From the NCBI GenBank assembly GCA_016748015.1, contig JAAOMT010000302.1:171237-235236 (forward strand): a stretch of DNA of 64,000 bases. The letters run 5' to 3'. How positions within the stretch are numbered: the first letter of the stretch is position 1; every line of letters starts with the position of its first letter. The notes under the pieces are model-generated. The model was given only the letters and a program-made list of their open reading frames with translations, did no database searches and was not told the origin of the DNA. This document shows, piece after piece, positions 1 through 57,502 of this stretch. The stretch is from Geosiphon pyriformis (taxonomy: Eukaryota > Glomeromycota > Glomeromycetes > Archaeosporales > Geosiphonaceae). The position numbers were made by a program, and so were the translations under genes.

Positions 1-2
1 AT

Positions 3-44
3 ATTCCTATCACTTCTTATGCTGATGGGTCTGAAGACGTGTAG
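3..44 (+). CDS. possible 3' end of a gene truncated by the window edge
   Basis: Reading from base 3 gives 13 codons of balanced composition ending in TAG (IPITSYADGSEDV), followed at once by AT-rich sequence like a 3' UTR. The opposite strand offers a rival reading: an ATG at about 76 opens a basic 23-residue stretch (MKQNGISKKGKSSTRL...) that runs to a stop at the window edge and could be a first exon. Too little is visible to choose between them. Confidence 0.2.
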   Translation: MPITSYADGSEDV

Positions 45-401
45 ATGATTTGCCTTTCTTAGAAATTCCATTTTGTTTCATACGATTTTCTCAAAATAAT
101 TAATAAGAAAAATTATAAAACGTTTATACCCCAAACAATCTCCAAAAAGTTTTTGCAATAATCAGGATTGTTACATCATAATTATCATATATATTAAAAA
201 CCCCAATCCTCCCAATTCATAAACTCTTTTCAACCCGAAAAAGAGTCGGTCATCGCGGGTATCCATGCATGATATTTGTTCACCTGTCATGCATATGATC
301 ATCGTTTTTGGCTCACAAAGATTAACGGCCATACACCCAAATAAAATCAAAAGAGTGAAAATTATAAAGTTATAGATTGAACGGGAAAATTCTGCTATTT
401 C

Positions 402-437
402 GTTGTTGCTGTTGTTGTGTGTTGTTGTTGTTGTTGT
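402..437. repeat. (TTG)n microsatellite
   Basis: Imperfect TTG/GTT trinucleotide run in the intergenic region 45-760. The rest of that stretch is AT-rich and I see no gene or other signal in it. Confidence 0.8.
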
Positions 438-759
438 TTCGTTTAATTATTTAACAAAGTTTCCACTTGATCACTTTCCCATTCTTTTCTTCGACAAGGG
501 TCATTCTTTCCATTTATAGCCCGGATGTCCGAGTTTATATAGATTTTAATCATTAGTTATTTCTTTAAATAGTGTTTAAATTACCAAAGGACAATATATA
601 TAAACTTTCTATTCTTTTTTTGATCTCTTTTATAAATATTCTCCTACGTACATCTGCAAAATATAAGTTATCTGGTTTTTAGTATTTACCACGACAACGT
701 TGGCTGGTCCAATTTTTTGTGTGTATATACCTTTACACCTCGTGTGTAATGTTATCTTT

Positions 760-1032
760 TCATAATTCATCAATAAGTTTATCGACAATATCTTTCGCCA
801 CAGTTTCCATTAAAGTTGAAACTCTTTTCCGATTCTGTCTCCTTGGTTTTTTCAACGTGGGGAAGAATTGATTTTCATCAGTCGTTTCCTTTTTCTCTAG
901 AGTCTTTCTAAAAAATAAATTCTCACCCTCACCCTCACTCTCACTCTCACTCTCACATAACAAAACCCCTTCTCTTGCTGTAATCAAAAGATTACTCTCC
1001 TTGCTCGGTTTGACCGGTTCAAACTTTTGCAA
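760..1032 (-). CDS. hypothetical small basic/acidic protein or terminal exon
   Basis: A minus-strand open frame of 90 codons ends in a stop at 760. It has an acidic Ser-Glu/Gly-Glu run (SESESESEGEGEN), encoded by a TCTCAC/CACCCT simple repeat on the plus strand, then a Lys/Arg-rich segment (KKPRRQNRKR) and a possible amphipathic helix at the C-terminus (METVAKDIVDKLIDEL). The frame stays open upstream to a TAG near 1102 without any ATG; the listed first codon is TTG. If real, it is therefore a downstream exon of a spliced gene, or translation starts at the late Met and only the tail is made. Composition is gene-like compared with its flanks. I do not recognise the protein. It would be divergent from the four-helix gene starting at 1278. 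Confidence 0.3.
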   Translation of the reverse strand: MQKFEPVKPSKESNLLITAREGVLLCESESESEGEGENLFFRKTLEKKETTDENQFFPTLKKPRRQNRKRVSTLMETVAKDIVDKLIDEL

Positions 1033-1277
1033 AAGGAAAAAGAATCGAAACGTTATAAGAAGGCGGCCTTTAGCGCTAGCTACTAATTGATGCGATAAAC
1101 TCTAAAGAGAAACGATATATTAACAAAGTACAACCATACCCCAAAGCAATTGTGGTTGTTGGAATTTACAAACCGAAATCTCAAATTTTTAACTACAAAT
1201 CCAAAGGAAGGCTTACCTGTTCTAAAACAGAACAGGTTTATTTTTTGACCATTCTTGAGCTTTTATTAAAAAAGACG

Positions 1278-2656
1278 ATGATTTATCAAAATTCAGCTCG
1301 TTACGCAGTCGCTATTATATCAATTTTATTCATTGTAGGTGTTATAATTTAGAAATAAAAAAATTTAGTTTCTTCTTTTTCAACCAAGTAACCCGGTCGA
1401 ATCATTTCTTTTATTAGTCATGGTGCACTTTAATATCTGTTCGTACTTTTCTAAAAAATAATGGTGAGCATTTTCAACATTGTCACTGGAAAATTTAAAT
1501 CAAAAAGTTAATAATCTAACTCTCAATCACAAAATTACAGAAGTCGTATACCACTTGTCAGGTTTTTATCTGTTGGTTTATGCGGCAATATATACTATTT
1601 TTGCACCTTTTGGTGTTGCCGGGATTCTTGGTGCTTTACACGTGAGTTAATTTGATTTTTTAATGATTACTTTAGTTCAAGTTAATTTAAAATCTCACTC
1701 GTCCTAATTTTTTTAAACCAGCGAAAGAAGACATTGATTCGAGGGTTTCTTTATCAATATTGGGTCGGTTTAATCCTGTTCACTGCTATTAACATTGTTA
1801 ATGTACTCTTGGCACATAAGTGGGAACAAAAAACACGTCTTTCTTGTCAACAAGATAACCACAGCGATGCGTTTTGTGCAAAAAAAGTAAAAGACACACA
1901 ATTAGCCAGTCTTGTATTTACCTCTATGCAAAGCATTACAATGGTGAGTTTCTTTCTATTCTTTGGGTGATCTTATTTAATATAAAGTGGCGATTCTACA
2001 TGTTAATTTTTTTCAAAATCGATTAGGGAATTTGTGGGATTATTTTGCTCATTTGTGGCAGGCGTGAATTCCAAGATATTAAAATCGACGAAGAAACGAC
2101 TGACCTATTGGAAAAACAAATATTCGCCTCGAAAAACGATAATGGTTTACTTTCTGTACCACAAAAAGTTTACAGAGAACCAGATGACGCCAAATCTGAT
2201 TACACGTATTGGAAATCGAATAATTATCCCAACAAAGCTGAGGATTTACTATCTCGCAAACCCAGTTTTACCTCACATGCTTTGAGCCGTCAGCCTACGA
2301 ATACAAAAAAAATTAATGTTCAACAAAGCCGAGGTCTAAATCGAAGTGCTACAACTGCAAGTCATTATTACAGCACTTATTCAACTCGCAGCGGCCCCCC
2401 TATTCAAACAATGAACTTTGGTCCTGTAGCTGTCCCAAAACGCGCTTTTTCCACGCGTACATATCAAACACCACATTTTGAACAGAACAGTTTGTATCGT
2501 GCAGCTCCAGCGGCAGCGTCAATTCATCAAAAATCTCGGCCGTCGTCACCCAATTTTTTTGAAAATAAAGCTCAATGTGACGACTACAATAATTATTGGC
2601 AGCCAAAAGTTGCAAAAACGTTGGCCAGCGATCTCACAAGGAAAGGTTTGTACTGA
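1278..2656 (+). CDS. predicted four-helix membrane protein with Ser/Tyr-rich tail
   Basis: Four exons give one continuous 337-residue protein: 1278-1338, 1541-1641, 1722-1943 and 2027-2656. Introns are GT-AG and short (about 80-200 bp); the last two donors are GTGAGT and the last two introns are in phase 0. The first donor (GTGTTA) is weak but is the only one that keeps the frame, and it puts a Glu at residue 21. The start is the first ATG of the frame at 1278. Four hydrophobic segments lie near residues 8-24, 28-52, 61-85 and 118-142, with a hydrophilic loop between TM3 and TM4 carrying two Cys (SCQQDNHSDAFC). The C-terminal ~190 residues are polar, rich in Ser, Tyr, Asn and Pro and probably disordered and cytosolic. 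The topology resembles small fungal plasma-membrane proteins; I cannot name a family. It converges on the gene ending at 3495. Confidence 0.72.
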
Positions 2657-2770
2657 AACTGAATTCACCTAATGATGGTTTCGGCAAATATTATGTCTCT
2701 TTAGATAGTCTGTTAGCTAAAAACTGCTGAAGAACTATAATTCATCCCTAAACGTCGTGTCAGCTGAACA

Positions 2771-2776
2771 AATAAA
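2771..2776 (+). terminator. candidate polyadenylation signal AATAAA
   Basis: AATAAA lies 115 bp after the stop of the four-helix membrane protein, a reasonable place for its 3' processing signal. In such AT-rich DNA the hexamer is common, so this is weak evidence. The rest of the convergent intergenic stretch 2657-3494 shows no coding potential. Confidence 0.35.
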
Positions 2777-3494
2777 ACAAAAAATATCTTTGACACGTCA
2801 TCCCTTTATCCCTCAAAATGTATTTATAACACTCCATCTCTTGATTATAACAATGTACAGCAAACTCATTAACGTCTTGTAACAAAATTATTGAAATGAA
2901 AATCTATAAAAGTCAAAGTGTCAAATGATGCAAAAAATATAAAAAAACCCGTGGTTCTATCAAAAATTAAATTCCACATCAATTTGAGTGACTCAAAATA
3001 ACCATTAAACCATATCATAAATAATTAAATTTATGCTATTGATAATCTTGAAAAAAACTAAATATTGTTCGAGTTTAAAATATTCAGCATCTTTACACAT
3101 GGCCTTGCATGTAGGCATAAGTTGATTGTAGTTGAATTTCTGAAACACTCCTGCATACATTGAAGCATCACAGATTGGCTATTTTGCAAATCGCTGAATT
3201 GTATATATATTTAACGTCAACTTCAATGACTCACCGATTCAAAAATCATGCAATTTTATTTTTAGAAAAGATATTGCCAAATTTTTTTTTGCCAAATTTC
3301 AGAGTTGTAAAAATTTAAATCGCTTTTAGATTTCAAAAATTGCCCAAATCCCAAAAAGGGAGAATAATTCTTGATTTAAGATATTGAACCAATGTTAAAT
3401 TAAAAGTTTTTTTGTCCAACCCCAATAATAGAAGTCGAAATTATTGTTTTCGAAAAATTACGAAATTAATGGAAAAGGCTAATTGAATAAAATT

Positions 3495-5598
3495 TTAAGG
3501 GACAGACATTCTTCTTTCAAGCGATTCCAGTCTAGCCTTCAAGGTACTCAAGACGTCAAAGTAACTTTTATCTTCTCCTTCATTTAAGGATGTAGCCGAT
3601 AAAGGTGGGCTAAAGGCACCGGCTGATGAAAGATGAATATGGCGAGCGTAAGGTGATCCTGAACTGCTACTGCCACTGACACTTTCAGCAGTAGATCGAT
3701 GAGGGTAACCCATATTATGGCTGTTTGTATGAATATCGCTTAGACCTCCATCATGTTCAAGAGGTGGACTAAGGCTCATCCTGACAACAGTTGAATTCTT
3801 CATTTCACCTTCGATCTTGGTAATTCTTTTTTCAAGGGTCATTAAATCTTTGACGACCTCTCGCTGCATGTCTCTAAAATGACTGTGTACGAGACTCTCA
3901 ATCATGGTGCCTGAAGTTTGAAGAGTCTGCAACAAAGTGGAAGTTTTTCGAATCTGATCATTTAGAGTAGACTTCAAATTTCGACTTTCAGCAAGGGTAT
4001 CATAAAAGGAATCAAATGTATTTATAAAAGATTCCTTATTAATTCGGTCAGCATGTGTTAATTCGTGCGATTTTGCCATATATGAGGATGATCGTGAACC
4101 ACCAAAGGGCCGGAATTCAACGTTTTGAGGTGAAATAAGACCATTGATACTTGCATTTGTAGAAGCCGAATGCAAACTATGGGTTCGATGTGCTGGGTGG
4201 TATCCAAAGTCAGAGTTTGATAATCCATTATCAGTACCATTAACTCTCGTCCTAGACTTATTTGCTATTGTAGGACTAATTGGAGTGGTAATGGAGGAGT
4301 TTCGTTTCAAGTTGGATGTATTTGGTGAAAGACTATCATGTGGAGATCCTGAAGTGCTGATGAGATTTTGAGCATTATAAGGTGGAGCAAATACACTAAG
4401 GTTTCTTGAGTTACGATTATTTCTAGATCTTTGATGAGTTGGTCTCTTGGGTAAAGTGGCTGAAGAGCTACCCAAATTTTTTCTGTCAACTCCATTTTGT
4501 TGTTGCTGTGCTTGTTGTCTTGCTTCAATAATTGCCTTCTGTTGTTCTTTCAACTTTAAAGTACTACGAACCTTTTCCATCACTTCAGGGTCATTAGTAA
4601 CCTTTATGCTGTTGGAAGTGATGGTAGAAACTGCACAACGTCTTCTCTTTCTCATTCTTGAATCATCATCAATTAGAGCAGATAAATCGGCAGTGGCCTC
4701 ATGTGGTGAGAAAGGAGAATGAGATGACCTCGGAAAGTTTTTAGGAGAAACTGGCTTGGAGTTATCACTTCCCAAATATGAAGTGGATGGCTCTTGTTTG
4801 ATTAAAATTTCTCCCCTGAAAATAAAATAAAATAAAAAATGAGTTTCAAATTTTACAATCACTGAAAATATCTCGCTATTGACTTTGCCAGACTTACCGG
4901 TCTGATCTATTAGGGGAAGCAATCGGTTCGACTGGAGAAGCCACTTTTGACCCATATATTTGTTCATTGCTAGAATTACAATTATCAAGAACTTCCTCCA
5001 CAGACATTCGCTTTCTTATATTGCCCAAAGCTGGAGGATTGAGGCGGTCAGAAGGTAAAAATTTATGATTGGAATTTGTACAGTCTTCCTTTGGAGCAGG
5101 CGTAAATGATTCCAAAGGGGATAATGATTTACTTTTGGAGTTACTAGCAATAAACTCAAATTCTCCCTCAATGAAAGGGACTCGAGTAATTGAAACACTG
5201 TTTAATAGGCAATCTGCCATTCCTGAAAGTATTTCTAATTTACTTAATTTGCAAAATTCTGCTAGCAAATGATTGCCAAGGCGAGTTGCTGTATTGCTCA
5301 ATGCGTTAGCAGATAGGTAAATATCACCAGACTCTTCATAAAAACAAGAACCTTCAGTGGCAAAGAATTTTTGTGGTATCTTTCCAGAATTATAAATATA
5401 TCCAACGCTTGACTCAAAAAATATCCTATCAATGTCCCTCAAACGATAGAAAGGTTTTTGCGTTCCTTTTATAGTTGAGATCATTTGTGATGATGAATTT
5501 TGTTCCAACGATGACATGAAGTTTTCCCAAGGGAAAAGGTATAGACAAAAAGGCTGCTGGTTGGCGTAAACACCAAGCATTATTCGACTGACTTGCAT
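3495..5598 (-). CDS. uncharacterised 673-aa protein with coiled coil, regulator-like
   Basis: Two exons on the minus strand, 5598-4898 and 4815-3495, are joined by an 82-bp intron with donor GTAAGT and acceptor TTTCAG; the split codon rebuilds an Arg, and 673 residues follow without a stop. The start is the ATG at 5598; the frame extends only to a non-ATG codon above it. Residues 1-155 look globular, with aromatic and hydrophobic patches. Residues ~160-490 are low-complexity (Ser, Pro, Asn), with a basic MRKRRRC cluster near 288 that could be a nuclear signal and a Gln-rich run near 320-335. A helical, probably coiled-coil segment spans about 505-560, and a short charged helix ends the protein (LKARLESLERRMSVP). 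This architecture suggests a nuclear or scaffold protein of fungal regulatory type, which is inference; I do not recognise the family. Codon composition is unlike the surrounding transposon DNA, and the frame looks under selection. Confidence 0.8.
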
Positions 5599-6302
5599 GA
5601 TGTATTTTGCCAAAGGAGGGTATTAGAAAATAGTTGGAATTCGGCGAAATTTAATGGATTAAAGGGATAGGATATGCTGATAAACAGCGATTTAGTGACG
5701 GATAAAAGGGGTGATTTCTAAAAGAAAGGACGAAATTGTGTAGATTTCGACGAGTAAAGAGAAATGAATAAAAGGAAATTTATCAGTCGAAAAGGTTGGC
5801 GTTTGGTTAAATAAGAAGGCTCAAAAGGAGATTTCCAAAAGAGCCACCACACAGTATGGTAAAACTAACCAATAATAGCTGAAGCAGGTGCTCGACTGAT
5901 AAGTTTACAAACAAAAAAAGAATGTAAGGTATAATAAGAGCGTTTTGATATTGAGTAAGGAAGTAACAGCGTTTTGTTGAATTGGCTGCCAAAGTCCATT
6001 TTCGGCTCCTCAAAAAGTAAATTCTCGTAATCATTCGGGGACTTTGTTCGGACAGTTAATAATCAGATTAACTGAGGCGTACCACAGTTAATATTATCTT
6101 GTGCATCAGGATTTTTATCAGTGTTTCATTTCATGTTGGAATAATGATAACGGATAATATGTTATTTTTGGTATTAATGCAAAGACTCCTAAAGGGGGTT
6201 TAATGAAAATTGTGAAACTTGCATCACAACTATCCGAAAATTTATTGTAGAATTGAAACACAAAGGGACATTTAATTTATGCGGAGAAATATTATCAAAC
6301 AA
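5599..6302. other. intergenic region, promoter side of the minus-strand coiled-coil gene
   Basis: About 0.7 kb of moderately AT-rich unique sequence upstream of the ATG at 5598. Short open frames here lack codon bias or motifs. No specific promoter element could be fixed. Confidence 0.5.
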
Positions 6303-6833
6303 ACTTAGGATTATGATTCAAAACTATATTTGGGTTTTTGAAAAATAGGGAGAAAAGTTGAAGTTTGATATCAATGAGAAAGCTTACATCATGAAGGCAA
6401 AGGGTGATTTCTGAGACAATACTAACGTTAAATTAGTAGAAAAACGTTGCAAACGAAAGATGGGTAAGGATTTTTGATTCAAAAATATATTTATTGTGAA
6501 AAAAAATACTTAAATATTTCTGCAGAATTGATAATTAATATTAAAATATGTTTTTAATCTCAGTCGAGCTTATTGATTTCAAATGAATCTGAATTTTAGC
6601 AGAATAAATGGCAATTTGAAACATTGAACCGGGGTTGTTTACTATTTCTTTGTTTTACAAGCAAAGGATATAAAAATTTAATATACCCAGGAAACACTGC
6701 TACATGAAGATCAAGGATCTCCCAAAATATATTTTTTGGAGGAATACCAAGTGAAGGGTATACAAACGCCGGGATCAATGAAGACTGCATGGAGGGGCTG
6801 TCTGCTTAGGTTTTGCGTGCTTGTTTATGTGTC

Positions 6834-7642
6834 TCATAGACCCAGGAAAACGTCCATTAATTTTCCCGTCTGTGTATAGGGCCACTTATTGCTTCTGCCC
6901 TTTGTTTCGAAGTGGAAAGGCCATACCACGCGTTCATCCTTTTTAAAATTGAAATTTTTGGTCTTAAATTTGTTTATCGATGTGCATTGACGAAGTGTGA
7001 AGCCAAACCTAAGCAGTCTCGTAAGGCATGCCAAGACGGATGACGGCTTTATAAAACTTTTCTTCCCCCAAAGCCGAAACATCATCAAAAAGAATACGTC
7101 TTTGCTGAAATGCCATAGGCTTCAACTATTTCTTTGCTTCTTTAACACAACATCTTTTGTTCCACCTCACCACAGTATTAAAGGCAAATCTCTCCAATCC
7201 ATACATCGCTTCATTAACTGCTTCTGACGGTGGTTGGGATACACCTTGAACAGCAACGTGGGGCTGATAGTTTCTCGCGAGCATAAATGTTGCCATTGCC
7301 TCGGTTTTCATCTTGCATTTTTTGCTTGTTTCGGAGTTCTCATCTATATTTAGCTGTTCGTCTGCGGATAAAGACGCTGTTAATGGAAAGAATATCTTGG
7401 TAGAGTTTGTATTCGTTGGAGGTTTTATCATCGAAAAGAACCACGAGCTTTGCAGAATTGAGGAAAAGTTGAGGGCAAAGTGGCAGTGACGGTTGTGATG
7501 GATAACCACAATTTTCGAGACCACTATACAACTCGTAGGTTGGAATTTGAGAGAAGAGCCGCTTTTGTCGGCCAAGATCCTCTTTTTTATTGGCACTAGA
7601 GACACAGGCATATCTTAGTAGTGGCGGTGTTAATGGCTGCAT
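6834..7642 (-). CDS. hypothetical multi-exon coding region (first copy)
   Basis: On the minus strand, an ATG at 7642 opens 100 codons of balanced composition (MQPLTPPLLRYACVSSANKK...) down to 7340. A second frame, open from 7611 to 7126, continues downstream with codon use that looks equally real (KTEAMATFMLARNYQPHV). A splice from GTGGTT to GAACAG would join them in frame, but the donor is poor, so a frameshifted pseudogene is also possible. A third gene-like stretch follows at 7088-6834 (VVWPFHFETKGRSNKWP). All three are richer in G and C than the flanks. A further frame at 6790-6596 (MQSSLIPAFVYPSLGIPP) may be another exon. I recognise no domain. Confidence 0.35.
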
Positions 7643-7835
7643 TTTGGGAAGTTAGTGGGGGAAAAACGAAAGAGTGTGCAGACAAGTACATGGAGATGGG
7701 AGTATTTATTGTCATGAATTTGAACCTCATATGCATTAATCAGTAGTTGATAAGATCAGTCTCTGTTTCGGTGTCTATTTCTAAAGGACGAATATATCTT
7801 TTGAAATCTATTTTCCAACATTTAAATTTGTGGTG

Positions 7836-7845
7836 TATAAAAAGG
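7836..7845 (+). promoter_or_regulatory. TATA-box-like TATAAAAAGG
   Basis: TATAAAAAGG is followed by a GC-rich patch (CCCGCCCC) that stands out in AT-rich DNA, as in a core promoter. It could serve a plus-strand gene whose remnant is the Hsp70-like tail at 8308. No transcript evidence is available, and an identical copy lies at 9965-9974. Confidence 0.25.
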
Positions 7846-8307
7846 CCCGCCCCAAATATTATTCCCCTCCCAATACTGAACTCTTTTATAATTTTCAAAC
7901 TAAATGATAAGCTACTCGCAAAAGCTGATGACTTGGATAATAATAAAAGATTCCTGGAAATTACTAATATTATTTTTCGGAATTTGTCAAGGAGATAATA
8001 CCTATATTTAAAAGAAAAATGTGTCGATGTGGGGGCGGTTTAGAAACAATAGTGATGGTAATTCAGGAAAAAATATTCAGAAACCCATTACTTGATTCTT
8101 AACACCAAAATGCAGTATATTTTATCCCCCAAGTTGAACTCGGGCAAGAAACTGCATTTTAGAGCAGAGCCCTCATTCCGTTATCAGATCATCAGGCGTT
8201 AATTATATTTCTGTCCTCGGATAAAATATTTACTTGATGGAATTTTTTCTACTTTCAAAAACATTGTCCGATTTTACGCGATTATTTGGAAGGTAACAAG
8301 CGGAGAG

Positions 8308-8411
8308 ATGATAGCGGAGGATTGGATGGAGTTAGATCTCGGATCAAATAACGGATGCTACCCTAGAAAAGAGCCTTTGACTATGTTTCTCGTAGGAATC
8401 TTCCAAGGTAG
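8308..8411 (+). pseudogene. Hsp70 (HSPA12-like) tail fragment, cut by assembly gap
   Basis: This is the same reading as 10437 onwards (IAEDWMELDLGSNN...EPLTMFLVGIFQ), broken off after 34 codons by the run of N. See the fuller copy at 10437-10760. It is probably not a separate locus but the same sequence counted twice. Confidence 0.5.
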
Positions 8412-8431
8412 NNNNNNNNNNNNNNNNNNNN
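8412..8431. other. assembly gap of 20 N
   Basis: Exactly 20 undetermined bases, a round number typical of a placeholder gap. It is bounded on both sides by the same 2,109-bp sequence. Confidence 0.99.
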
Positions 8432-10540
8432 ACTTAGGATTATGATTCAAAACTATATTTGGGTTTTTGAAAAATAGGGAGAAAAGTTGAAGTTTGATAT
8501 CAATGAGAAAGCTTACATCATGAAGGCAAAGGGTGATTTCTGAGACAATACTAACGTTAAATTAGTAGAAAAACGTTGCAAACGAAAGATGGGTAAGGAT
8601 TTTTGATTCAAAAATATATTTATTGTGAAAAAAAATACTTAAATATTTCTGCAGAATTGATAATTAATATTAAAATATGTTTTTAATCTCAGTCGAGCTT
8701 ATTGATTTCAAATGAATCTGAATTTTAGCAGAATAAATGGCAATTTGAAACATTGAACCGGGGTTGTTTACTATTTCTTTGTTTTACAAGCAAAGGATAT
8801 AAAAATTTAATATACCCAGGAAACACTGCTACATGAAGATCAAGGATCTCCCAAAATATATTTTTTGGAGGAATACCAAGTGAAGGGTATACAAACGCCG
8901 GGATCAATGAAGACTGCATGGAGGGGCTGTCTGCTTAGGTTTTGCGTGCTTGTTTATGTGTCTCATAGACCCAGGAAAACGTCCATTAATTTTCCCGTCT
9001 GTGTATAGGGCCACTTATTGCTTCTGCCCTTTGTTTCGAAGTGGAAAGGCCATACCACGCGTTCATCCTTTTTAAAATTGAAATTTTTGGTCTTAAATTT
9101 GTTTATCGATGTGCATTGACGAAGTGTGAAGCCAAACCTAAGCAGTCTCGTAAGGCATGCCAAGACGGATGACGGCTTTATAAAACTTTTCTTCCCCCAA
9201 AGCCGAAACATCATCAAAAAGAATACGTCTTTGCTGAAATGCCATAGGCTTCAACTATTTCTTTGCTTCTTTAACACAACATCTTTTGTTCCACCTCACC
9301 ACAGTATTAAAGGCAAATCTCTCCAATCCATACATCGCTTCATTAACTGCTTCTGACGGTGGTTGGGATACACCTTGAACAGCAACGTGGGGCTGATAGT
9401 TTCTCGCGAGCATAAATGTTGCCATTGCCTCGGTTTTCATCTTGCATTTTTTGCTTGTTTCGGAGTTCTCATCTATATTTAGCTGTTCGTCTGCGGATAA
9501 AGACGCTGTTAATGGAAAGAATATCTTGGTAGAGTTTGTATTCGTTGGAGGTTTTATCATCGAAAAGAACCACGAGCTTTGCAGAATTGAGGAAAAGTTG
9601 AGGGCAAAGTGGCAGTGACGGTTGTGATGGATAACCACAATTTTCGAGACCACTATACAACTCGTAGGTTGGAATTTGAGAGAAGAGCCGCTTTTGTCGG
9701 CCAAGATCCTCTTTTTTATTGGCACTAGAGACACAGGCATATCTTAGTAGTGGCGGTGTTAATGGCTGCATTTTGGGAAGTTAGTGGGGGAAAAACGAAA
9801 GAGTGTGCAGACAAGTACATGGAGATGGGAGTATTTATTGTCATGAATTTGAACCTCATATGCATTAATCAGTAGTTGATAAGATCAGTCTCTGTTTCGG
9901 TGTCTATTTCTAAAGGACGAATATATCTTTTGAAATCTATTTTCCAACATTTAAATTTGTGGTGTATAAAAAGGCCCGCCCCAAATATTATTCCCCTCCC
10001 AATACTGAACTCTTTTATAATTTTCAAACTAAATGATAAGCTACTCGCAAAAGCTGATGACTTGGATAATAATAAAAGATTCCTGGAAATTACTAATATT
10101 ATTTTTCGGAATTTGTCAAGGAGATAATACCTATATTTAAAAGAAAAATGTGTCGATGTGGGGGCGGTTTAGAAACAATAGTGATGGTAATTCAGGAAAA
10201 AATATTCAGAAACCCATTACTTGATTCTTAACACCAAAATGCAGTATATTTTATCCCCCAAGTTGAACTCGGGCAAGAAACTGCATTTTAGAGCAGAGCC
10301 CTCATTCCGTTATCAGATCATCAGGCGTTAATTATATTTCTGTCCTCGGATAAAATATTTACTTGATGGAATTTTTTCTACTTTCAAAAACATTGTCCGA
10401 TTTTACGCGATTATTTGGAAGGTAACAAGCGGAGAGATGATAGCGGAGGATTGGATGGAGTTAGATCTCGGATCAAATAACGGATGCTACCCTAGAAAAG
10501 AGCCTTTGACTATGTTTCTCGTAGGAATCTTCCAAGGTAG
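8432..10540. repeat. second copy of the 2,109-bp direct duplication
   Basis: Identical, as far as I could compare, to 6303-8411. The sequence continues uninterrupted past 10540 into the rest of the Hsp70-like frame, which fits this being the start of the right-hand contig. Confidence 0.9.
8963..9771 (-). CDS. hypothetical multi-exon coding region (second copy)
   Basis: Identical in all open frames to the region at 6834-7642: the ATG-led frame 9771-9469, the shifted frame 9740-9255 and the stretch 9217-8963. If the duplication is an assembly artefact, this is the same locus. Confidence 0.35.
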
Positions 10541-10760
10541 TGTCCCGAACTTGACAACCAATGCTACAGTAGTTAAAGGAGCTGTCGCGTATGGATTGAA
10601 TATAGAAACTGTGCGTACACGTACACTCCCACGTTTGGGAATTCGGGAACGGGCAAGGTTTGAAATAGCTATAGTTTTGTTTTTGAGAAATTATCTTTCA
10701 ATTTCATTACAAAATTTGTTATTCCTTCTTTTGTACAAAAGCAGATGGCCCGATCTTTAA
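10437..10760 (+). pseudogene. degenerate C-terminal tail of an HSPA12-like Hsp70
   Basis: The frame reads MFLVG, then QGSVPNLTT, then VVKGAVAYGLNIETVRTRTLP. These are the closing signatures of the ATPase lobe of the HSPA12-type Hsp70 proteins that are strongly expanded in Glomeromycotina: the nucleotide-binding MFLVGGF block, then the VVxGAVxYGL block and the (V)xTRxL strand. Here the blocks are closer together than in the family: the glycine pair of MFLVGG is lost and roughly ten residues are missing between the blocks. After RTRTLP the sequence departs from the family and turns hydrophobic. Nothing recognisable as the N-terminal ATPase lobe lies upstream on this strand. I read it as a truncated pseudogene; a short expressed fragment is possible but unlikely. 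Confidence 0.6.
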
Positions 10761-11449
10761 GTTTGAAAAATTCGCTGGACGTGATACGAAATCGAAGTGA
10801 ATAACCTGGTTTTGAAAAACAAAGATCCACCTATTTCAAAGTATATTATACGCCTATGGCATACGTAAATAGCAGAACGGGTATTATTTAGACTCATTGT
10901 GAGGTTTATTTTATATTGATTCTTTTTTGCCCTAGTTGTAAAAGCACGAAATAAACTTTGTGGAAAATGGATAGTTTTACCAGTTAGAAAATTTAATGGT
11001 ACAATACGGGCGCATTCTTTACTAATCGAGTATCCTCGCGTGAAAAAACAACTAAATTTTATATTCTAAATACTCAGCAAACAAATAAACCAGGAAATAT
11101 GGTTTCAATGGTGTGATAGCTACCCAGGTCAGAATAAATTTAAATCAATTAGAGTTTTGCAATGATTTATTAAGATTTAAAGCCTAGGATTTTTAGCTAA
11201 GTATATAAACAAATTTTTTTCATCGATAATTAATTCTTTAAATGCTTTTGTGCACTTTATTCTAATCCAATTGACGATTTTATATAAACAGGTCTTCTTA
11301 CAAAAGCCCTTAAATGTAAAATTATCAGAAGCTGTTAACTAACATCTATTACATTTTAATACAGAAGTTTTTTATACTATATTAGAATTTAGTTTCTTAC
11401 ATTTGAGAAAGTCGTTCTAGCCGGCTTTTTTACAAAAATGTTTTTATAG
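10761..11449. other. non-coding, no feature recognised
   Basis: Mixed-composition DNA downstream of the Hsp70-like remnant, with stops in all frames. No motif was recognised. Confidence 0.5.
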
Positions 11450-11524
11450 GCGCTGCCAGAACCAAAGAGCAATAAACCATCTGGTGGTAAAAAACACAAC
11501 ATGAACAAACAAAGTGCATCAAAA
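11450..11524 (+). other. isolated exon-like segment (75 bp)
   Basis: A 25-codon open stretch in phase 0 (ALPEPKSNKPSGGKKHN...) sits between a good acceptor (TTTTTATAG) and a consensus donor (AAAA|GTAAGT). Its composition is gene-like while both flanks are AT-rich. It may be one exon of a gene whose neighbours have decayed or lie far away, or a chance match. No family was recognised. Confidence 0.25.
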
Positions 11525-11699
11525 GTAAGTTTTTCATTGCAATTTGTATAAATAGTAACATTAATTTACTAATTCTTCTTTCTTGACAAACAAACAACAA
11601 ATAAGATTTACACAACAAAATTTTTTTTGCTAAACTTATATTGAATATATTATTAATAATATTGTAAACATATAACATATATTTTTTCGTGTGTATTTT

Positions 11700-13619
11700 T
11701 CTTCAAAAAACATACTCTGAATATTTTAAAAACATTATGAATTTAATATTAAAATACCCTTAAAATAGTTTAGATATCATATGTATTTTGCAGATTTTAT
11801 AAAAAACCATAAAATTTTATGTAAATTTATAACTTGATAATTTAAGCCAAATAATTAATTCTATACTATTGAAATCAATAAAATAATTGTACTTTTATTA
11901 AATTTTGTTTTTAGAATTATCAAATTTTTTATTTTTTGTCATGACGACTTTTTTTCTTTTTACTTTAATTTTACTGCTATTAATAAAGCTGAAATTTTTT
12001 TTATTCCAAAAAACTTATTTTCTTTTAATTCAACTTTTTTAATTTTTTTATTACTTTTATCTGAATTGTTTTTATTATTTGATAATATAATTAATTTTTT
12101 AACTTACCTGATTTTGGTGTATTTTATTCTGTTAAACCAGTTTATAATTGCTTTGGTTTTAGTCAACCAACTATTTCTAATTAAAATTGCATAAATTATA
12201 ACTTTAATAATTATAATATTAATTAAAATAACTTTATTTTGCAGATTAATTAATAAATTAATAACTTGATCCAATAAACTTTTTTTATAAATTTTATTTA
12301 TTAATTAAAAATAAATCTTTCATTTTTTTCAATTAATTTTAAAAATGGTTATATTGTTAAAACTTAATTAAAAATTTTTTTATTACCTTTTATATAACAT
12401 ATTATAACTTTGGTAAATAGTTTATCAAAAATATTGTTACTATTTTAAATATTGTTGACTTATTTTGGTTTAATTTATTGTTAATAATAAGTTTTTTAGT
12501 TAATTTATTAAATTATTAATTAATTATAAAAAATTTTAAAGTTATTTGCTTGGTAATAATTATTTTTTTTAATAGCCAGTTTTAAATTATATAATTAAAA
12601 TTATATAACTTAAATAGTTATATTATTTTAAATTTGTAAATAAACTGTTAAATTCAGTTTTTTTCTTAATATTAGTAAATTGAATTTATTTTTTTTATAA
12701 CTCAATTGGTTAATTAACATATTTATCTACTAATTTTTAATTTAATGTTATTATAATAATATAAATCAAGTAAAAATAACATTTTTAAATATAATATAAG
12801 AATTTTATTTTGTAAGCAATATTAACGCCATTAATTTAATAAATATTTAAAAAAATTTCAATTTTGAATTCAATTTGTATTTAAAATAGTTAAATTTTTG
12901 ATAATAGCTTCTAATTTTGTTTGTTTAATTCTCTGTTATAAACACCAAAATATTAATTAGTAATTTAAGTAGCCAATAATAATTAAATTAAGTGATAATT
13001 TATGACTTTTGTTTACATAATAATGAAGAAAATAGTTATTTTGAAAAGTTTTTATAGATTTAAATTGATTAAAGCTTGAAAAATTAATAATTAAATATTC
13101 TGAATAATAGTTGAAATGATATAGTCTGACTGAAAACTGATAATAAAATAATTTCGACTTATAACAGTATAAAAAATTACATAAATATAATATCTGGATA
13201 AACCAAAATAAGTCAATTTTGTTATTATTAATCAAAATTATAAAATTAAATTTGTTAGTTAAAATAACATATTTAATAAGATAAAAATTAATATTCTTTA
13301 ATATTCTTTAATATACGTTCAATATTACTTGAATAATTCAAAGTGCTTTAAAAAGTTTATATAAGAATAAATTAGTAAAATTTAAGATATTATTAAATTA
13401 TTATAAATTCATAAAAAAACTAAAAAATTAAATTAATTTTATCTATAAATAGTGTTACCAAGTGAAAATTAAGTTATTAATTAATATAAAATTATCTTTA
13501 TAATTCGTATTATTTTAATTTATTACTTATTATTAATCAAAATATCAAATTTTAATATCTAATTAATAATTTAATTTGTACAATACACAAGTATAAATAA
13601 ATGCAATGATTTAATTATA
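11700..13619. other. AT-rich tract without genes
   Basis: Nearly all A and T, with stops in every frame and no recognisable motif. By analogy with 53.6-55.4 kb it is probably decayed transposon DNA, but I could not read a domain here. Confidence 0.6.
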
Positions 13620-13642
13620 CAGTCAAACCTTTATAAAAGAAC
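13620..13642. repeat. left terminal inverted repeat of the pogo-like element
   Basis: Begins CAGTCAAACC and ends TATAAAAGAAC, with TA immediately before it at 13618-13619. Related TATAAAAGAAC-type units recur at 13664-13745, giving subterminal repeats as in other pogo-like elements. Confidence 0.6.
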
Positions 13643-14129
13643 TCTCTATAAAAAAACAACCTTTTACAAAGAACATTTTTTTATAGAACCAATTAATTAA
13701 TTAAAAATTTTCTCTCTATATAAGAACAATTTATAAAAGAACAAAAACATAATTTTATCAAATGTTTATTCGAAATTTATCTTCATATAAAAATAAATAT
13801 CATGTGCTAGATGTTAATTGGTAATTAAAAAAGAGTTAGAATGTATTGAATTGATTTTATCTTTATTTATTACTTCTAATCTTTATTTTTTGACTGTTCT
13901 TTCTCACTTTTTTCAACTCTATTTTATAGGAGAAAGAAAAAAATGCTATTAAAGAAATGAGACAGATTGAGATGGAAAAGGAATCACAGTAGGAACAAGA
14001 GATGTCTGTAAAAAACATTAAATCTAGTATAAAAACATTTGGTTTAAATGATAAAAGAAGAGAGATAGCAATTGATAGAGTATATTGTATTAGGTAATGA
14101 TTCATATATTAAAGGCTTTTAAAAACAAG

Positions 14130-17100
14130 CTTTAACAAAATATTAAACTCAATTAAACAAACAAAATCTAATCACTCACTAATCATTTTGGTTTATTTAA
14201 GACACTCTAAACTCTATGGATCAAAGGTTGTATCAATTTGATATCATTCTCAATGAAGACATTTATTTAGGCAAGTATGAATACCTTTTTCTTTGCACAT
14301 GATAATGCAGAAAAGACCAAAAAATGAATAAAGACCACTATTACGAAAGATATGACTGGTGAGTTGCCAGTATTATAATTTTTAAATAACACTCTTTGAT
14401 TTCTCTTATACTTAATAGTGCTTTTTTTAATTAACAGATATTACTATATATACTATGAACCATTGCATATTTTCTCATCTCCACCATTAACAACTATTAT
14501 TACTATCATCCTACGTGTACCCTTTGATTTCTCTTACACTCGATAGTGCTCTTTTTAATAATCTAATAATATTGTTGTTTATCTCCATATACAACTTTCG
14601 GAAATTTCTATCATCTTATTTCACCACAAACTCCAAATTCAAAATCAAACAAACTGTTAATAACTTCACCATGTTTATTAAAACCTGCTGCAAGACCAAC
14701 AGGATTTGATAGTTTTTTTCCTCAAACCAATGACCTCACAGTTCATCCAATTAGCATCTTTTAATCAGTTTAAATGGCACATATAATCGTTTTAATTTGA
14801 ATTTAGTGGTGATAAAAAAACTCTACATACCTCAACAGCCAATTGTTCATCATCCACCAGCCTATTCCTAGCATTCAGCCCCACTTTGTCGACTAAATTA
14901 CCAATCTATGCATCTGTTCTGTATTAGTGCTGAGGCGTATTAGAAGCATAAACATCTATTTGTGAACAGTGGCATGTGAATTAAAGGAGTACTCTAAGAA
15001 GAATACGAGGAATATTATCCCTGTTGTTTCTAGGATAAAGTTTCGGAGTTTTATTGAAAGGGTTGATAGTTGATAGTGTGCATCTTATAACTGGAAAAGT
15101 TGCCTGGTGGTTCAGGATAGAAGGGGCAAAGTATTGAATGATAAGAGAGTAAGAGCAATAATGTACCTAGAATGTGTGTATACAGTTTTAATAGTAACCC
15201 ATGGAATAATAACATTTTCTTTGGTAAAGTTTTGATGGCTTGATCTAATCACACTTTTTACAGATAGTGAAACATCATGATCATTGTATTGATTTTGGAT
15301 GCCTGTTTCGGAAACAATGGAATGTATGTAAACTGCAAAGACCTTTGCCTTTAAATGATTTGATGAATTGTCACATTAGGGAATATATAGCATAATAACA
15401 GATGTCTTGGTAACCTTTTTATATTCATGTGTCATTCGTAGTTAGCTGAGCATTAAGAGAAGATCAGGCGCTTATCACAGGGTTTCACTCATTAATAATT
15501 TAATTGAATGTTAAACATAAAATAAATATTCAATATTATAAAAACTATAATATCCTTGATCCCTTCCTACTTTTTATTCATTATTTGATATGGACAAAAC
15601 TATGCAGTTCCAATTTGCATCCCAAAGTGCCTGCTGAAATTCTTTTATATGAGTTCGCATTATTTCCAGTTTAGAAGAGTTTATAAGATAATCAGTGAAT
15701 AGGTTTTTTAGGTATAAAAGTTGTTATTAGTAGAAGAGGTTATATATAATCTTAATTAAGAGAAGCACATACTATCAATTATTTTGATAGTTCATCAGCA
15801 TTATTAAATATTAATCCGTTTTTTCCATGTTGAATTAGCTCATCAAGACTGAATAATAGATTAGGAAGAATAATAAAATAGTTTTTAATGAATTCCAACT
15901 CTTAATTAAATATAAATTCATATTTACCACTTAAAGTTGATTGCACAGACAGGCAAATCACATCCAAACATATTTACTACCTTCATAGAAAGATTCATTC
16001 CTAAAGATGATTTATGAAGAGAAATCCCAAGATTCGCTGATTCTGTGGAATGGTATTATTATGCCTATCAACATTATAATCAACAAAGAATTAACTTACC
16101 TAATATCAAAGGATAGTCTTCAACAGTTAACCATGTTGTCACAACCCTTACATTGGTCAATAAAAGTCTACTAATATTCCATGTATATATATCTTTCAAT
16201 GGGGCGTTTTCCATTATCATAAATAATAATTTTGGGAAAGGTTTGGCACCTCCCTTTACCAAGTTACTTTTAGCAAATTTGTCGCATATCTTGGCTGCTT
16301 TCCAATAATATTGAAAAATCTTCATTTGCTGTCCAACTTATACTGCTAATAATGTGTATTGGACAATCGGAACAATATTTGGCAGGTTCTTTTGGCAATG
16401 GTTTAATTGTTATTAAAGTTGGGTTGCTGGCATTACAAGCAATCCAATAGATTGTAAAGAGATAATATCTTCTGATCTGATCCCTTAGTTCTTTCTTAGA
16501 AACAAATTAGAAGTTAATATTGAGTCTATTGAAATGAAGTAGGAAAGAAATTATCTTGTGTATTTCTTCGATGTCTAATCTGCGGAAATGGGTTGGTGGA
16601 CAATTTTATAAAGTCGAAACTTTGCCACTATAACAATATTAAGATTTTTTTAAAAAGAAATGTTTCATAATATGAAGAAGACTTATTCGACATCTCAGTT
16701 ATAAAGAAGCTCTTAATGCAGGACTGCAGTCATGGTGAAGTGGGCTACTGCTCTATGTCCCCATACTCTTTTGCGTCTATAATGAAACAAATTAAAGATC
16801 ATATCACTTATAAACATAAGACAATATCTTTAAAGCTTTATTAAACAAGCTATTTCACAAATTTAACTATTCTGCTGTTAGGGCCCAATCGAAGCCCTAG
16901 AATAGTATAGCCAAAGTTATGCCAATCAATAATCAGATTTGTTTGCCATTGCCAGCATATGAATTGAACAATGAAAAGAGTAGGAATAAAAGGTGGATTC
17001 TATATCTGAGATGAAAAGATTGCCACAGTGAATCATGAAATATATTTTTTTGCACAATTAAGTTCTTGCGCACAAACTATAAATCCTTATAGATTTATCT

Positions 17101-21874: not shown

Positions 21875-23068
21875 TTAAAATCCTGCTCGCAAATGACTTT
21901 TAAGCATTCTATCGGCCAGAATATATCCTCGCTGTGCCGATTTTACATACCATTTAATGGCCTCGTGCATATCTTTTGGCGTCCCACTTCCATTTTCATA
22001 AAAATTACCCAAACAAAATTGTCCCTCAAAATCTCCGGATGCAGCGGATTTCTGGAAACAATAGTGAGCACGATGATCATTTTGTTTGGATCCGATCGCC
22101 TCACGATAAAACTTTCCGAGTACACACCATGCTTCATCTTTTCCAATATCAGCAGCTTGTTGATACCAATGTAAAGCTAATGAAGCATCTTTTTTGGTTC
22201 CAATTCCTTGTTCAAAACATTTTGCTACAGTTAATTGACCTCGCCCATCCCCACCCTTGGCAGATTCTAAATACCAATAAAATGCGTTGCAATTTTGATG
22301 CTTCCAGGTACCCAGTCCATACCGATGACATTCTCCAACTAAAAATTGTGCACTGATATTGCCACCAATCGCCGATTGCCGATACCAATAAAATCCTCGC
22401 TTTGCATCTCGTTCGACTCCTGAGCCATGATATAGACAGGAACCAAGGTTCATCATACCAATGGTATCTCCACCATCGGCTGATTTTCGATACAAGTTGT
22501 AGGCTATAGATAAATTTTGTTTGATACCTATCCCCTCACCGTAGCAATATGCAAGTAAACAATGACCTCGAGAACTCCCAGCATCTGACGCTCTTTTATA
22601 CCAGTAAAAAGCGTTTTTTTTATCTTTTTTACAACCAATCCCAGCGAGATAACAACCTGCCAGCGAAACTTGACCCAAAGCGTCATCTTTTCCAGCGGCC
22701 ATCTTATATAATGCAAATGCTTTCTCTTTATCAGTCTGAGTTCCAATTCCCAATTCATAAAATAATCCAAGCAGACGAGTACAGTGGGGAATACACTGAT
22801 TTTCGTGCAATAAATCCAAGACCGTTTGTAGATGTTGGTTATTTTTAACGAGAAAGTCTGTTATGGTTGTGTGAAGCCTTTTCTCAATTTCCCCACGACC
22901 AGCAGCTTTGTTATGTAAGCCATCCAAGAGATCAAGTATTTCATTCTCTTTTGGCAATTCCATATTGCTGTACTGATCTTCTATCTCGTCGATAGTGCAT
23001 TTTTGGTAAAAAATTTTTATAAACTTTCCTAAAATCAAATAAACGTAATCAAAACTGAGTGTTTCCAT
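21875..23068 (-). CDS. Sel1-like repeat protein, 397 aa
   Basis: A single uninterrupted exon with an ATG at 23068. Residues ~98-384 form about eight Sel1-like (TPR-type) repeats of 35-37 residues with the usual pattern LGxxYxxGxGxxxDxxxAxxWYxxAAxxG, clear in AGCYLAGIGCKKDKKNAFYW and GNFYENGSGTPKDMHEAIKW. Such repeats stack into a superhelix that binds other proteins. The N-terminal ~95 residues (IEDQYSN...EILDLLDGLHNK) resemble the linker between the protein kinase domain and Sel1 repeats in kinase-Sel1 fusions common in Glomeromycotina; no kinase domain lies upstream, so this may be a stand-alone or truncated paralogue. It is isolated between AT-rich, transposon-derived blocks, yet shows no stop or frameshift. 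Partner and pathway cannot be inferred. Confidence 0.88.
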   Translation of the reverse strand: METLSFDYVYLILGKFIKIFYQKCTIDEIEDQYSNMELPKENEILDLLDGLHNKAAGRGEIEKRLHTTITDFLVKNNQHLQTVLDLLHENQCIPHCTRLLGLFYELGIGTQTDKEKAFALYKMAAGKDDALGQVSLAGCYLAGIGCKKDKKNAFYWYKRASDAGSSRGHCLLAYCYGEGIGIKQNLSIAYNLYRKSADGGDTIGMMNLGSCLYHGSGVERDAKRGFYWYRQSAIGGNISAQFLVGECHRYGLGTWKHQNCNAFYWYLESAKGGDGRGQLTVAKCFEQGIGTKKDASLALHWYQQAADIGKDEAWCVLGKFYREAIGSKQNDHRAHYCFQKSAASGDFEGQFCLGNFYENGSGTPKDMHEAIKWYVKSAQRGYILADRMLKSHLRAGF

Positions 23069-26309: not shown

Positions 26310-28241
26310 TTGGTTTTTTATCTGTCTTATCTTTTATTTTGCTTGGTTTTCACAATTTCTCAATTCACTAATCCTTTCATTGTCTCTTTGGCATCTGATG
26401 CTGTCAATGCTATGTCCATAAAAAAATCAGCCAGAGATGCCACTGTGAACTCTGTGAGTGGAAGTCTGAGGCAAAAACCTAAGGTTTCACTTGACAAAAT
26501 CAAACACTCGAATGACGAAGCTAATTTAACTTACAAACTGCTTGCAAGTGCTTCCAGTTAATACGAAAATATGAATATCTCTTATGATGAAAAGTTGAAG
26601 TGTGAAATAGGCAAAGACATGAGTTATGGTGCTGGCAGTAAGAGTAATGAGCAGTTAGACTCTTGTACCAACACTCCAAAAGCAAAATGTTTTGACTCTG
26701 GTATAATGAATACTTCATCTTTGGGCCTCTGTGATTTTGGCTCAGCCGTTAACAACTTTGATATGAGCTTATCTCCCCTTGTTTTTTTGAAATTCTCTTA
26801 TTGTTCTGTTGTTTCTGTCAAGGAAAAATTCTGTTTTGAACCTACTAAATCCTTCACACTCGACATTAATCTGTTGGCTGTTCCTGGAAGTACTCTATGT
26901 GACAAACTCAAGAGTATCAGGTTATTATTCTACAAAATTGACAGTTTTGGAAGTGCATCGACTCCTTCAAAATTTCTAGGCATTGTTTAGGCATCTTTTA
27001 CATCTGATTTCAGTCTCACTATGGCTAAACAATTGGCTGTGTCTAAGAATCTTGTTGTCAATGCTGATCTCAAGAAAATCAGCATACGTTCAGATTAAGA
27101 AATTGTTATCAAGAAGATTCTAGTTGATCTGCCCAAATTGGTGATTGAATCTGCTTTGGTTAAATATGGGAAAATTTTTTCAATCAAAGTACAGCTTATT
27201 GGCCTTTGGCAAAAAGTGCTAGTAGAGTTTGAGAGTTCTCAGGTCACTGACCTAGTTGTGTCCAAATGGTCAATCTTGCTAGGTAAGGATTTAGTGTGTG
27301 TTGCCAAAGCCAACACCGACAAACAAACGTGGGATTTAAAGGACAGCTATTGCACTCTTCTATACACTCTGCCGATAGGCATAACTGCTCATGATCTCTC
27401 AGACTTGGTCCAGTCATATGGTGGGAAAACTTGCTACATTTCTAGGAATTCGGTATCTTATGCATAGGCCCACTGTGCTGTTGTATGTTTTGATTCTAAC
27501 AATGCCAGAGAAGCTGTCATTTACTCTATGCTGGTGTTTAGGGGTATTAACTTCATTTGGACTGGTTTGTCTTCTCCTAAGTGTGTTGCATGTGAGAATT
27601 TTGGTTATGTTTTGTCTGGCTGTAAAAGTGGTGAGAAAAACAGTGGACAGAGTTCCAGAAAAAAAAGATTTTTCTGTTCTAATTTGGATAAGAGGTGCTT
27701 TGCATTTATTTATGCCAAAAAACAGGCACCCGTATCTTATCCAGTATCTTTCAGTGGTGCGACTTGGTCTTCTGTGATAAGTGGCTTCCCTAAAAATTCA
27801 TATTCTACATTACTCGTTGAGAACAATTTGAGCATAGGTTCAGTTGACAGTTTGATGCCTGTGGTTACAATTCTGGCTTTACACATTAGTGTCCTTGAGC
27901 ATTCGCATGAAAATATGTCAGATCAGGTAACAGATATTTCATATAAACTGGACAGATTGTTGGCTGTTTCATCAGTGAATTTTGCTGTTCCACTCTCTCC
28001 TGAACATAATCCTATGCTGGACATGGTTGTTGATGCTCCATTGTTCGTTCCTTCTGTGCCTAGTGTGGTCACTACTGTCTCCCAAGAAATTTTTCTAAGT
28101 GGTGCTCATGTTTTAACTGCAAAAGTGGGTGGTCTGAAGGCTAATCTGACAGTTCTGAAGAATTTGGTTAAGGCAATATTGAATAAATTGGACTCTTTTT
28201 GTTCTGGCAGTAGTATGATAACTCCTTTCTTTCCCCAATGA
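26310..28241 (+). pseudogene. LINE ORF1 (gag-like, CCHC knuckle), broken, copy A
   Basis: Readable from about 26310 (SLRQKPKVSLDKIKHS) to a TGA at 28239-28241. The N-terminal half (SCTNTPKAKCFDSG, STLCDKLKSIRLLFYKID) is followed by a stretch that may be an RRM-like nucleic-acid-binding fold (SALVKYGKIFSIKVQLIG...VLVEFESS), then a zinc knuckle at 27582-27623 and a low-complexity tail with a helical C-terminus. In family members ORF1 binds element RNA. Stops or frame changes occur near 26560, 26988, 27096 and 27465. In the knuckle (CVACENFGYVLSGC) the zinc-binding His is Tyr, so it could not fold normally. Confidence 0.8.
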
Positions 28242-31200
28242 ATAGTTTAGCTTAGAAAATTGCTACTTGTAATGTTAGAGGTATGAATGTTTCTACCAAG
28301 CAGGATGATATTATTAAATAGTACATAGTTTTGAATAATGACATTTTAATAGTTACTGAAACTAAGCTTCATTCTAGCATCAAGCCTTAAATTATGAATA
28401 AATTTCCTGGTGTGAGGGTGTTTACTTCAGGTCTAGATGCTGGGTTTTTGGGTGCAAGCGTAGCTTTAATCATGAATAAGAAGTTAACCAAACATGTTTC
28501 AAAAATCTTTGAAATTCCAGGCAGACTTTTGATTATCCATTTGTTATTTAAAAACAAACAATCTGTTTCTGTATTGGGTTTATATGCAGAGATTTCTCTG
28601 GATAAGTGTATGATTCAGGCTGGTCTCATCAATTCTTTTATAGCCAGAGCTTGTAATGAAAGTACTTTTGTTATTTTGGGTGGTAATTTCAATAAGAATA
28701 AGAACAAATATAGCTCTAGCTTTAGTAAGTGTGCAGATTTTGGTCTAGTCAATACATTGGTTAACAGTTCTTACATATAGGCTTCTACTTAGAGGAATTC
28801 TAGGGGTGTTGAGAGGACCATCGATTACATTTTTGTTTTGCAAAGTTTAAGTAATGCTTTAATTAATGAGTGTGTTGTGGATGTGGATGAGTTCTTTAGC
28901 ATTGATCATAGTTCTGTTCAAATCACAATTGGTCTTGGTAGAATTTTGGATCCTGTTTTAAGGGCTATTCATGTTCAAGCCAATAAAAACAAGTAGAGGT
29001 TTAATGTTAAAAATGCTAATGAGATTAAATAGGAGTGGTATAGGATTGCATCTTGTGATAATTTTGCCATGTTTTCTGATAAGTTTACAGACTCTTATAG
29101 TTCATCTAATCTGAACAGCATGTGGAGTGTTATTTGCAAAGCCATTTGTTTTTCAGTGAATGAAGTTTTCTCAAAAACCTGGTTTAAAGATTTTGATAGT
29201 GGTTTTACTAAGAGCTCTTCCCACTATCATAGATTGGAACTTTTGGTTTCTAAGTTGGTGAAAGCTTCACATTCTATGTCATTAATTGAATTTGTCTCCT
29301 TGTTAGATGTTTGGATATTTTTGAACTCTGTTAATGCTTCTATTATCAAATCTCTTTTTCTTTCAGGATTTTATTTTGATGCTATTAGATCAGCTTTGGC
29401 AAAGGTTAGAAAGTCTTATTGTTCCCTCAATATAATGAAATTAAAACGTGTTAGGGACTCTCAAATCAGGCTAGCAATTAACAAAAGAATGGAAAACTTT
29501 GAGTTAAATAAAAGCCAAACTATTAGAAGTGTACTTAAACAGCCATTTTGCAAAGTCATATTGGATTACTTGGTTGTGGATAAAGATCTCATTTTGAAGC
29601 CTGGTTTGGTTAAAAGTTATGTCAATAGAATTATGGAGAGCTGGACTAGAAAGCATATAGTGGCTGATGACATTTTGGATGAATGGCATCGCCAATTTCA
29701 ACCCTTGGAATATGTTTTTGACAATGTCTTTTTGAATGTCATGCATCCAATTGTAGTAAAAGATTTTCTTGATGTGGTTTCAGGTTTGCTTGATAATAAA
29801 GCTGCTGGCCTTTCTAGTATTACAAATGAACTATAGAAATATTGTGACAGGTTTGTTCTAAATTCACTTTTGGTGTTTTTGAACTCTTGTTTAATTTGTA
29901 GATCTGTTCTGGGTCCTTGAAAGGAGGTCTAGGTGTCTATGATTCCTAAACTCTATGACTGGGAAGGGATTCTTACAAACACCTGACCCATAGCACTAAT
30001 TGAAACTGCCCATAAGATTTTTTTTAAGATCCTCTCTGATAAAATCTTCATGGCATATAGTAAGTATAACATTCTTCATGGTAACAACTTTTCAGTTCTT
30101 AAGGATACAACAATACAGTCTCCTATTTTTGCTATTGGTTTGGTGGTTAAAGATGCTTTGGAAAAGAATTGTGAACTTTGGTTAGTTTTGCAAGACATGA
30201 GAAAAGTGTATGACTTGATTGGTTGGGAATATTTGAGAAGAAGTTTGGTCAGAATTAAAATGTACAATAGATTCATAAGATTTTTTGAGAGTATTCACAA
30301 TGACCACATGAACAGAGTGATGACCAATTTTGGGCTAACTGATGAGTATAGTGTTCATAATAGCTTAGATCAGAGGGAAGTGTTTTTGTTTCTCTTTTGG
30401 CATATTTTTTACAACACTTTGCTGTATAAGATAAAAAGACAAGAAGCAGTGTGTAGTTATAGGCTAAATTTGTATTATGTTGTCAAGTCTGGTCATGTTG
30501 ATCCTCAAGATAGTTTGACCTCTTTTCTTGCTGTGAGTGCATTCATTAATGATACTATATGGGTTGGTTCTAATCAGGCGGCTACACAACATATTCTCAA
30601 CATTGCCAGTGAATTTTTCAGGATGAATGATATTTCGATCAACAATAACAAAACTGTAGCAATCCCAATTAATTGCAGAGTGATGGCTCCTTTTTTATCT
30701 GTTTGTAGTGTTCCTATTTCCATTGCCAAAAAAGGAACATCTCATTGATATCTGAGAATTTTTTTTTCTTCTAATGGGTTATCTAAGCCTAGCCTGGCTA
30801 AAGCACATTCAGATGTACAGTTTTTTACCAATCTTGTTCTAAAGAAAGCTATTTCAGACAAACAGTTCTCTTATTTGGTTTTGGCTGTTCTTTATTCTAT
30901 CATTGATTATAGGACCCAGTTTAGCTTTATTTCTGCTAGTATGTGCCAAAAGTGGGATGTTTTAATTTGGAAGAACCTGAAATTGAAATCAGATCTGCCC
31001 CTGGACTTTCTTAATGATGTTTTGCACCATTCCTTATTTTATGGCTTAAAGACTTTTGAGCAGATCCAAGCCAAAGGCAAGGTTGCTGCTGTGGTGTGTT
31101 TCACCAACTCTGTTGGGGTTTTGGGCCAATTGTTCAAACATAGGTTGCATGACTTACAGGTTGTGAGTTGGTGTTCAGTGCATCTCTTGTGCTCTCCTGT

Positions 31201-32926: not shown

Positions 32927-33085
32927 TGTAGTCCTGGTTGGCTTGAATGGCTAGTTACATATAGTAAAAACATGATTTACACCTAGTATAAATCATTATT
33001 TTGATGTATTGTCACTAGGCAGTGTTTAGACTTCACTTATTAAACTAATAAAAAAAAATAAAAATAAAAATAAAAGATAAAATTT

Positions 33086-34161: not shown

Positions 34162-34298
34162 TTTTTTTATTATTTATTAATTTAACAAGCAAAGTCCAAA
34201 CACTGTTTAGTAATAATACATCAAAATAATAATCTATACTAGGTGTGAATTATACTTTTTTTACATGTGACTAATTATTTAAATCAGCCAGAACTACA

Positions 34299-41027: not shown

Positions 41028-41106
41028 TCAAAATAAAATAAAGAAAGAAAAATAAAAGAAAAATAAAGAAAGAAAAATAAAAGAAAAATAAAGAAAGAAA
41101 AAAAAT
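41028..41106. repeat. AAAGAAAAATAAA-type simple repeat
   Basis: Purine-rich imperfect tandem array (AAAGAAAGAAAAATAAAAG units) inside the insertion in LINE copy B. Confidence 0.75.
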
Positions 41107-41332
41107 AAGCCAAGGCAATTTGCAGATTAGTATCCTGTCAATAGCCATGATCAAAAGCTATTGTTCTAGCGTGGTTAAGTATCAATTACTATCAACATAA
41201 AGGGTTGATAGTGGGGAAGTGGATGGAGATATGAAATAATTATTTATTTAATGAATGCGTTTCTAGACTAAGGATTCTGTGGTCTTGATTCTGTTTTTTC
41301 TGTTTCTAATATTACTGCTATATATACCTAAT

Positions 41333-56635: not shown

Positions 56636-56639
56636 AAGA

Positions 56640-57400: not shown

Positions 57401-57502
57401 ATCAAGTCAAATATTAATTTAATAACTTTGATCAATAATAAAGATAAAAATCTTTGATTAATTCTTAAGAAAATTCAAGTGCATATTGACTTTTGAATTT
57501 CT

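Follow-up and report, generated by a model that had tools for sequence, protein, structure and literature searches.

The window, a 64-kb stretch of scaffold C342 (C342:171237-235236, in an assembly of 124,688,122 bases and 406 contigs), contains two copies of a 2,109-bp unit on either side of a run of 20 N. The left copy occupies 6303-8411, the run of N occupies 8412-8431, and the right copy occupies 8432-10540, with no strand assigned to any of the three; the 20 N are the only N run of the window. Direct base comparison within the window gives 0 mismatches in 2,109 positions at an offset of 2,129, bearing out the identity claimed in an earlier, sequence-only reading of this DNA, and a repeat search recovers the same pair of copies, at the same offset, as a 300-nt family (D3). 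Each of the four open frames of at least 80 aa lying wholly within the left copy has a counterpart of identical translation in the right copy, so that the agreement of translations stated in that reading also holds for these frames. The match extends by 0 bases beyond the unit on either side, an automatic outcome, since at each end one copy meets N.

Genes and features at the locus

The unit contains a gene-like block on the minus strand, located at 6737-7748 in the left copy and, by identity to the left copy, at 8866-9877 in the right copy. In particular, the block comprises frames 6834-7088, 7126-7611, and 7340-7642 (left-copy positions), none of which has a Pfam match at E 0.1 or better. 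A search of the unit against its own assembly (40 of 93 candidates scored, making all counts lower bounds) revealed partial relatives of the block: at least 57 further partial matches, at 66–87% identity, with all of those listed falling within unit positions 435-1446. Frames akin to the minus-strand frames of the block are found in those of the genomic relatives that were retrieved. The full 2,109-bp unit was found in the same search only at C342:177539-179647 and C342:179668-181776, which are the two copies in the window. None of the seven frames in or beside the unit has a Pfam match above cut-off; frame 2045-2653 has a Y_phosphatase match below cut-off (E 0.034, 14.2 bits vs a cut-off of 20.9).

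A plus-strand gene at 10335-11578, tentatively Hsp70-like on the basis of a motif only, crosses the right-hand join (10540/10541). Ordered blastn and tblastx blocks relate this gene to a paralogue on the minus strand of the same scaffold (C342:86425-84751). Specifically, blocks 10337-10476, 10464-10526, 10545-10937, 11217-11359, and 11521-11578 match from C342:86423 to 84751 in the same order, and a tblastx block at 10494-10541 reaches over the join itself. The paralogue is about 50 bases longer near the join, perhaps because of an intron, and the two genes do not correspond there base by base. Judged by these alignments, the collinearity shows that the right end of the unit and the sequence past 10540 belong together. 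In the left copy, the first part of the gene (8206-8411, plus strand) is broken by the gap: blocks 8208-8347 and 8335-8397 match C342:86423-86153, the final paralogue block stops 14 bases short of the gap, and the remainder of the gene is missing. At the left-hand join (6302/6303), searches of the assembly itself found no spanning relative; a relative, on C354, of the sequence to the left of the unit reaches no further than window position 5753, and relatives of the unit itself start at unit position 435.

The unit has a G+C content of 36.9%, against 25.5% for the window, and its neighbourhood (2001-10000) is similar to it, at 35–37%. None of the tandem arrays reported in 1-16000 (seven rows) touches the unit or the gap. 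ARAGORN, run with the bacterial code, found no tRNA gene in the window, and Rfam gave no match there at the gathering score.

Elsewhere in the window, 26365-41784 is occupied by a long imperfect inverted repeat, with its inner arms 1.1 kb apart. The repeat search pairs its arms as 29356-33063/34162-37869 (83%), 26577-29153/38057-40633 (81%), and 26365-26558/41591-41784 (77%), and from its sequence the repeat reads as two copies of a LINE-like element, head to head. Five frames in the repeat were scanned: one, at 36663-37082 on the minus strand, has an RVT_1 match (E 4.8e-5) that falls short of the curated cut-off, and the other four have no Pfam match. A stretch of about 16 kb, at 42001-58000, has a G+C content of 11–17%, with 33% just before it and 20% just after it (2-kb steps). 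A 397-aa open frame with Sel1 repeats (E 1.7e-56) is located at 21875-23068; the genome has at least 150 Sel1 matches (150 of 1,991 candidates scored), and the available part of PMC9453076 describes Sel1 expansion in arbuscular mycorrhizal fungi and their relatives. Together with the low G+C content, this Sel1 frame and the many Sel1 matches point to a fungus of that group as the source of the DNA.

Gaps of 20 N along the scaffold

The first 255 kb of the scaffold (C342:1-255000; 242,417 bases without N) contain four gaps of exactly 20 N, that of the window included, as well as a 12,503-base run of N. A gap length of exactly 20 N that recurs in this way suggests a conventional placeholder, not a length that was measured. 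At the gap C342:147743-147762, the flanks overlap end to end over 265/262 bp, with 0 mismatches and a single 3-base indel in an ATT repeat; from this overlap, the gap probably marks a second false duplication. Unmerged contig ends would be the simpler explanation there, because reads would be expected to span easily a real tandem pair as short as 265 bp, and this point also bears against a tandem duplication as the source of the copies in the window.

The flanks of the gaps C342:66990-67009 and C342:77321-77340 do not overlap end to end: those of the first have only short matches in common, of at most 128 aligned bases and away from the gap ends, and those of the second have no match to each other. 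End-to-end overlap is thus present at two of the four 20-N gaps and absent at the other two, on this scaffold as the only one sampled, and a 20-N gap alone is therefore no sign of overlap. In a control with 2,000 random points having 2.5-kb flanks free of N, none showed either 30-base end in the opposite flank. Both of the direct repeats of at least 200 bp and more than 93% identity that megablast found in C342:1-255000 abut 20-N gaps.

The two gaps without overlap mirror each other in the two arms of an inverted repeat (about 0.9 kb) that encloses a contig of 10,311 bases. The sequences flanking these gaps match pairwise, at 94% (492 vs 514 bases) and 96% (375 vs 370 bases), and the orientation of the enclosed contig may, on this pattern, be arbitrary. 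The N run of 12,503 bases (C342:235237-247739) begins one base past the window and represents either a scaffold gap with a size assigned to it or sequence that has been withheld.

Origin of the duplicate

Two simple accounts of the duplicate were rejected. Chance similarity of the copies is excluded by the absence of any mismatch in 2,109 bases: for a given 2,109-mer at a fixed place, the chance of a match is about 10^-1072 at this base composition, with bases taken as independent. A dispersed repeat flanking the gap by accident was set aside on the lack of any other full unit in the assembly search (40 of 93 candidates scored) and on the 31-mers of the unit, none of whose 2,079 recurs, on either strand, in the remainder of C342:1-255000.

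We consider it highly probable (about 0.85) that the duplication is false and stems from overlapping contig ends left unmerged. The odds that we attach to this and to the other readings are matters of judgement and were not computed. The explanation by overlapping contig ends given in the sequence-only reading is the best one, and it gains further support from another 20-N gap of this scaffold whose flanks overlap. It is supported by the exact identity of the copies, the geometry of the overlap, the second overlapped gap, and the collinearity of the gene at the right-hand join. The lack of further full units in the assembly search, the uniform 20-N gap length, the position of both direct repeats at 20-N gaps, and the empty random control speak for it as well. 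In particular, the 20 N sit between the two copies on one scaffold, and the contig ends overlap perfectly from end to end over 2,109 bp with 0 mismatches. The earlier observation that the copies stop exactly at the gap is correct as geometry; it carries no independent weight, as the N run cuts any sequence shared by two contig ends in this way.

Under this explanation, two neighbouring contigs would share an end-to-end overlap of exactly 2,109 bases, with 6303-8411 closing the left contig and 8432-10540 opening the right one. The scaffolder would have recognized the contigs as neighbours and, without merging them, set them in series with a fixed 20-N placeholder, which would mean that the size of the gap was negative or not known. 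The genome would carry the unit once, between the sequence before 6303 and the sequence after 10540, and the scaffold would exceed its true length by 2,129 bases, a value (2,109 + 20) that corrects the earlier estimate of about 2.1 kb. Assemblers of the Celera type write negative gaps as 20 N. The available excerpts of PMC5368935, PMC2688933, and PMC4154752 contain no statement on 20 N as a Celera-type sign of negative gaps.

The same layout could arise from a real, very recent (or gene-conversion-kept) tandem duplication whose unit measures at least about 2.1 kb, in which branching of the assembly graph broke the assembly at the junction of the copies; we regard this as unlikely, though still a reading to be weighed. 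An exact tandem pair could yield a left contig ending in the unit and a right contig starting with the unit. The argument that real tandem repeats rarely end at a gap is therefore weak: an exact tandem pair is also able to halt an assembler at its junction, and the case must rest on other evidence. A tandem duplication gains from the many genomic relatives of the block within the unit and from the two sampled 20-N gaps that are not overlaps. Those two gaps also count against the preferred reading, as do an exact overlap of 2.1 kb that should have been easy to merge yet was left unmerged, the extra bases of the paralogue near the right-hand join, and the lack of a relative spanning the left-hand join in the searches. 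The gene collinearity over the right-hand join fits a single copy and is also compatible with a tandem pair. Against a tandem duplication, the copies would have to have accumulated 0 changes in 2,109 bases, whereas the listed relatives elsewhere are only 66–87% identical; megablast found no direct repeat of the above length and identity away from a gap in the 255 kb; the would-be break points at 6302/6303 and 10540/10541 have no bases in common; and the copies are linked through the 20 N only, with no continuous sequence from one into the other. The corresponding outcome for the genes, in which both copies are real and a recent duplication doubles one member of a gene family and gives the gene beside it an additional, truncated copy, is improbable to the same degree.

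A false duplication could also come from two haplotypes or nuclear types, one represented at each contig end (a heterotype duplication). The placement of the copies beside a gap fits the description in the available part of PMC9516828, and the other overlapped gap (C342:147743-147762) does differ between its flanks by the 3-base microsatellite indel. At the present locus, however, 0 of 2,109 positions differ, leaving no trace of two haplotypes, and we consider this origin very improbable.

Consequences and comparison with known assembly artefacts

If the duplicate is an artefact, an annotation of the scaffold has one gene-like block double and one false truncated gene. The earlier statement that genes here would be counted twice accordingly holds for the one block inside the unit, which would be double-counted in its right copy; the second gene would not be doubled and would instead gain an extra, truncated copy. 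The use of the finding is in quality control only. With overlapping ends at two of the four sampled 20-N gaps, counts of gene families and estimates of size taken from this assembly merit checking at every 20-N gap.

On the preferred reading, the duplicate is an artefact of an already known kind, compared here with cases described from other assemblies. In the available text of PMC9516828, gaps between copies are a main mark of false duplications, and copies without heterozygous k-mers are termed homotype. The present case shares with a homotype false duplication the identical neighbouring copies, their position on one scaffold, the gap between them, and the double-counted gene-like block. The calls described there rest on read depth, discordant pairs, and k-mer multiplicity, whereas ours is made from assembly sequence.

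The present case also resembles the "negative gaps" of PMC2688933, in which, as far as the available text describes them, the ends of neighbouring contigs overlap near-perfectly over a short nominal gap. In that work, 1,076 overlapping contigs were reduced to 534 joined ones, and 542 gaps with an average size of −822 bp were closed by stitching; the overlap here, at 2,109 bp, is larger than that average. According to the accessible part of PMC5368935, ALLPATHS-LG assigns negative gap sizes to overlapping contigs, and SOAPdenovo2 puts gaps within overlapping contigs. A Celera assembly described in the available part of PMC4154752 provides a further instance, in which the ends of several contigs overlapped by about 1 kb with perfect identity.
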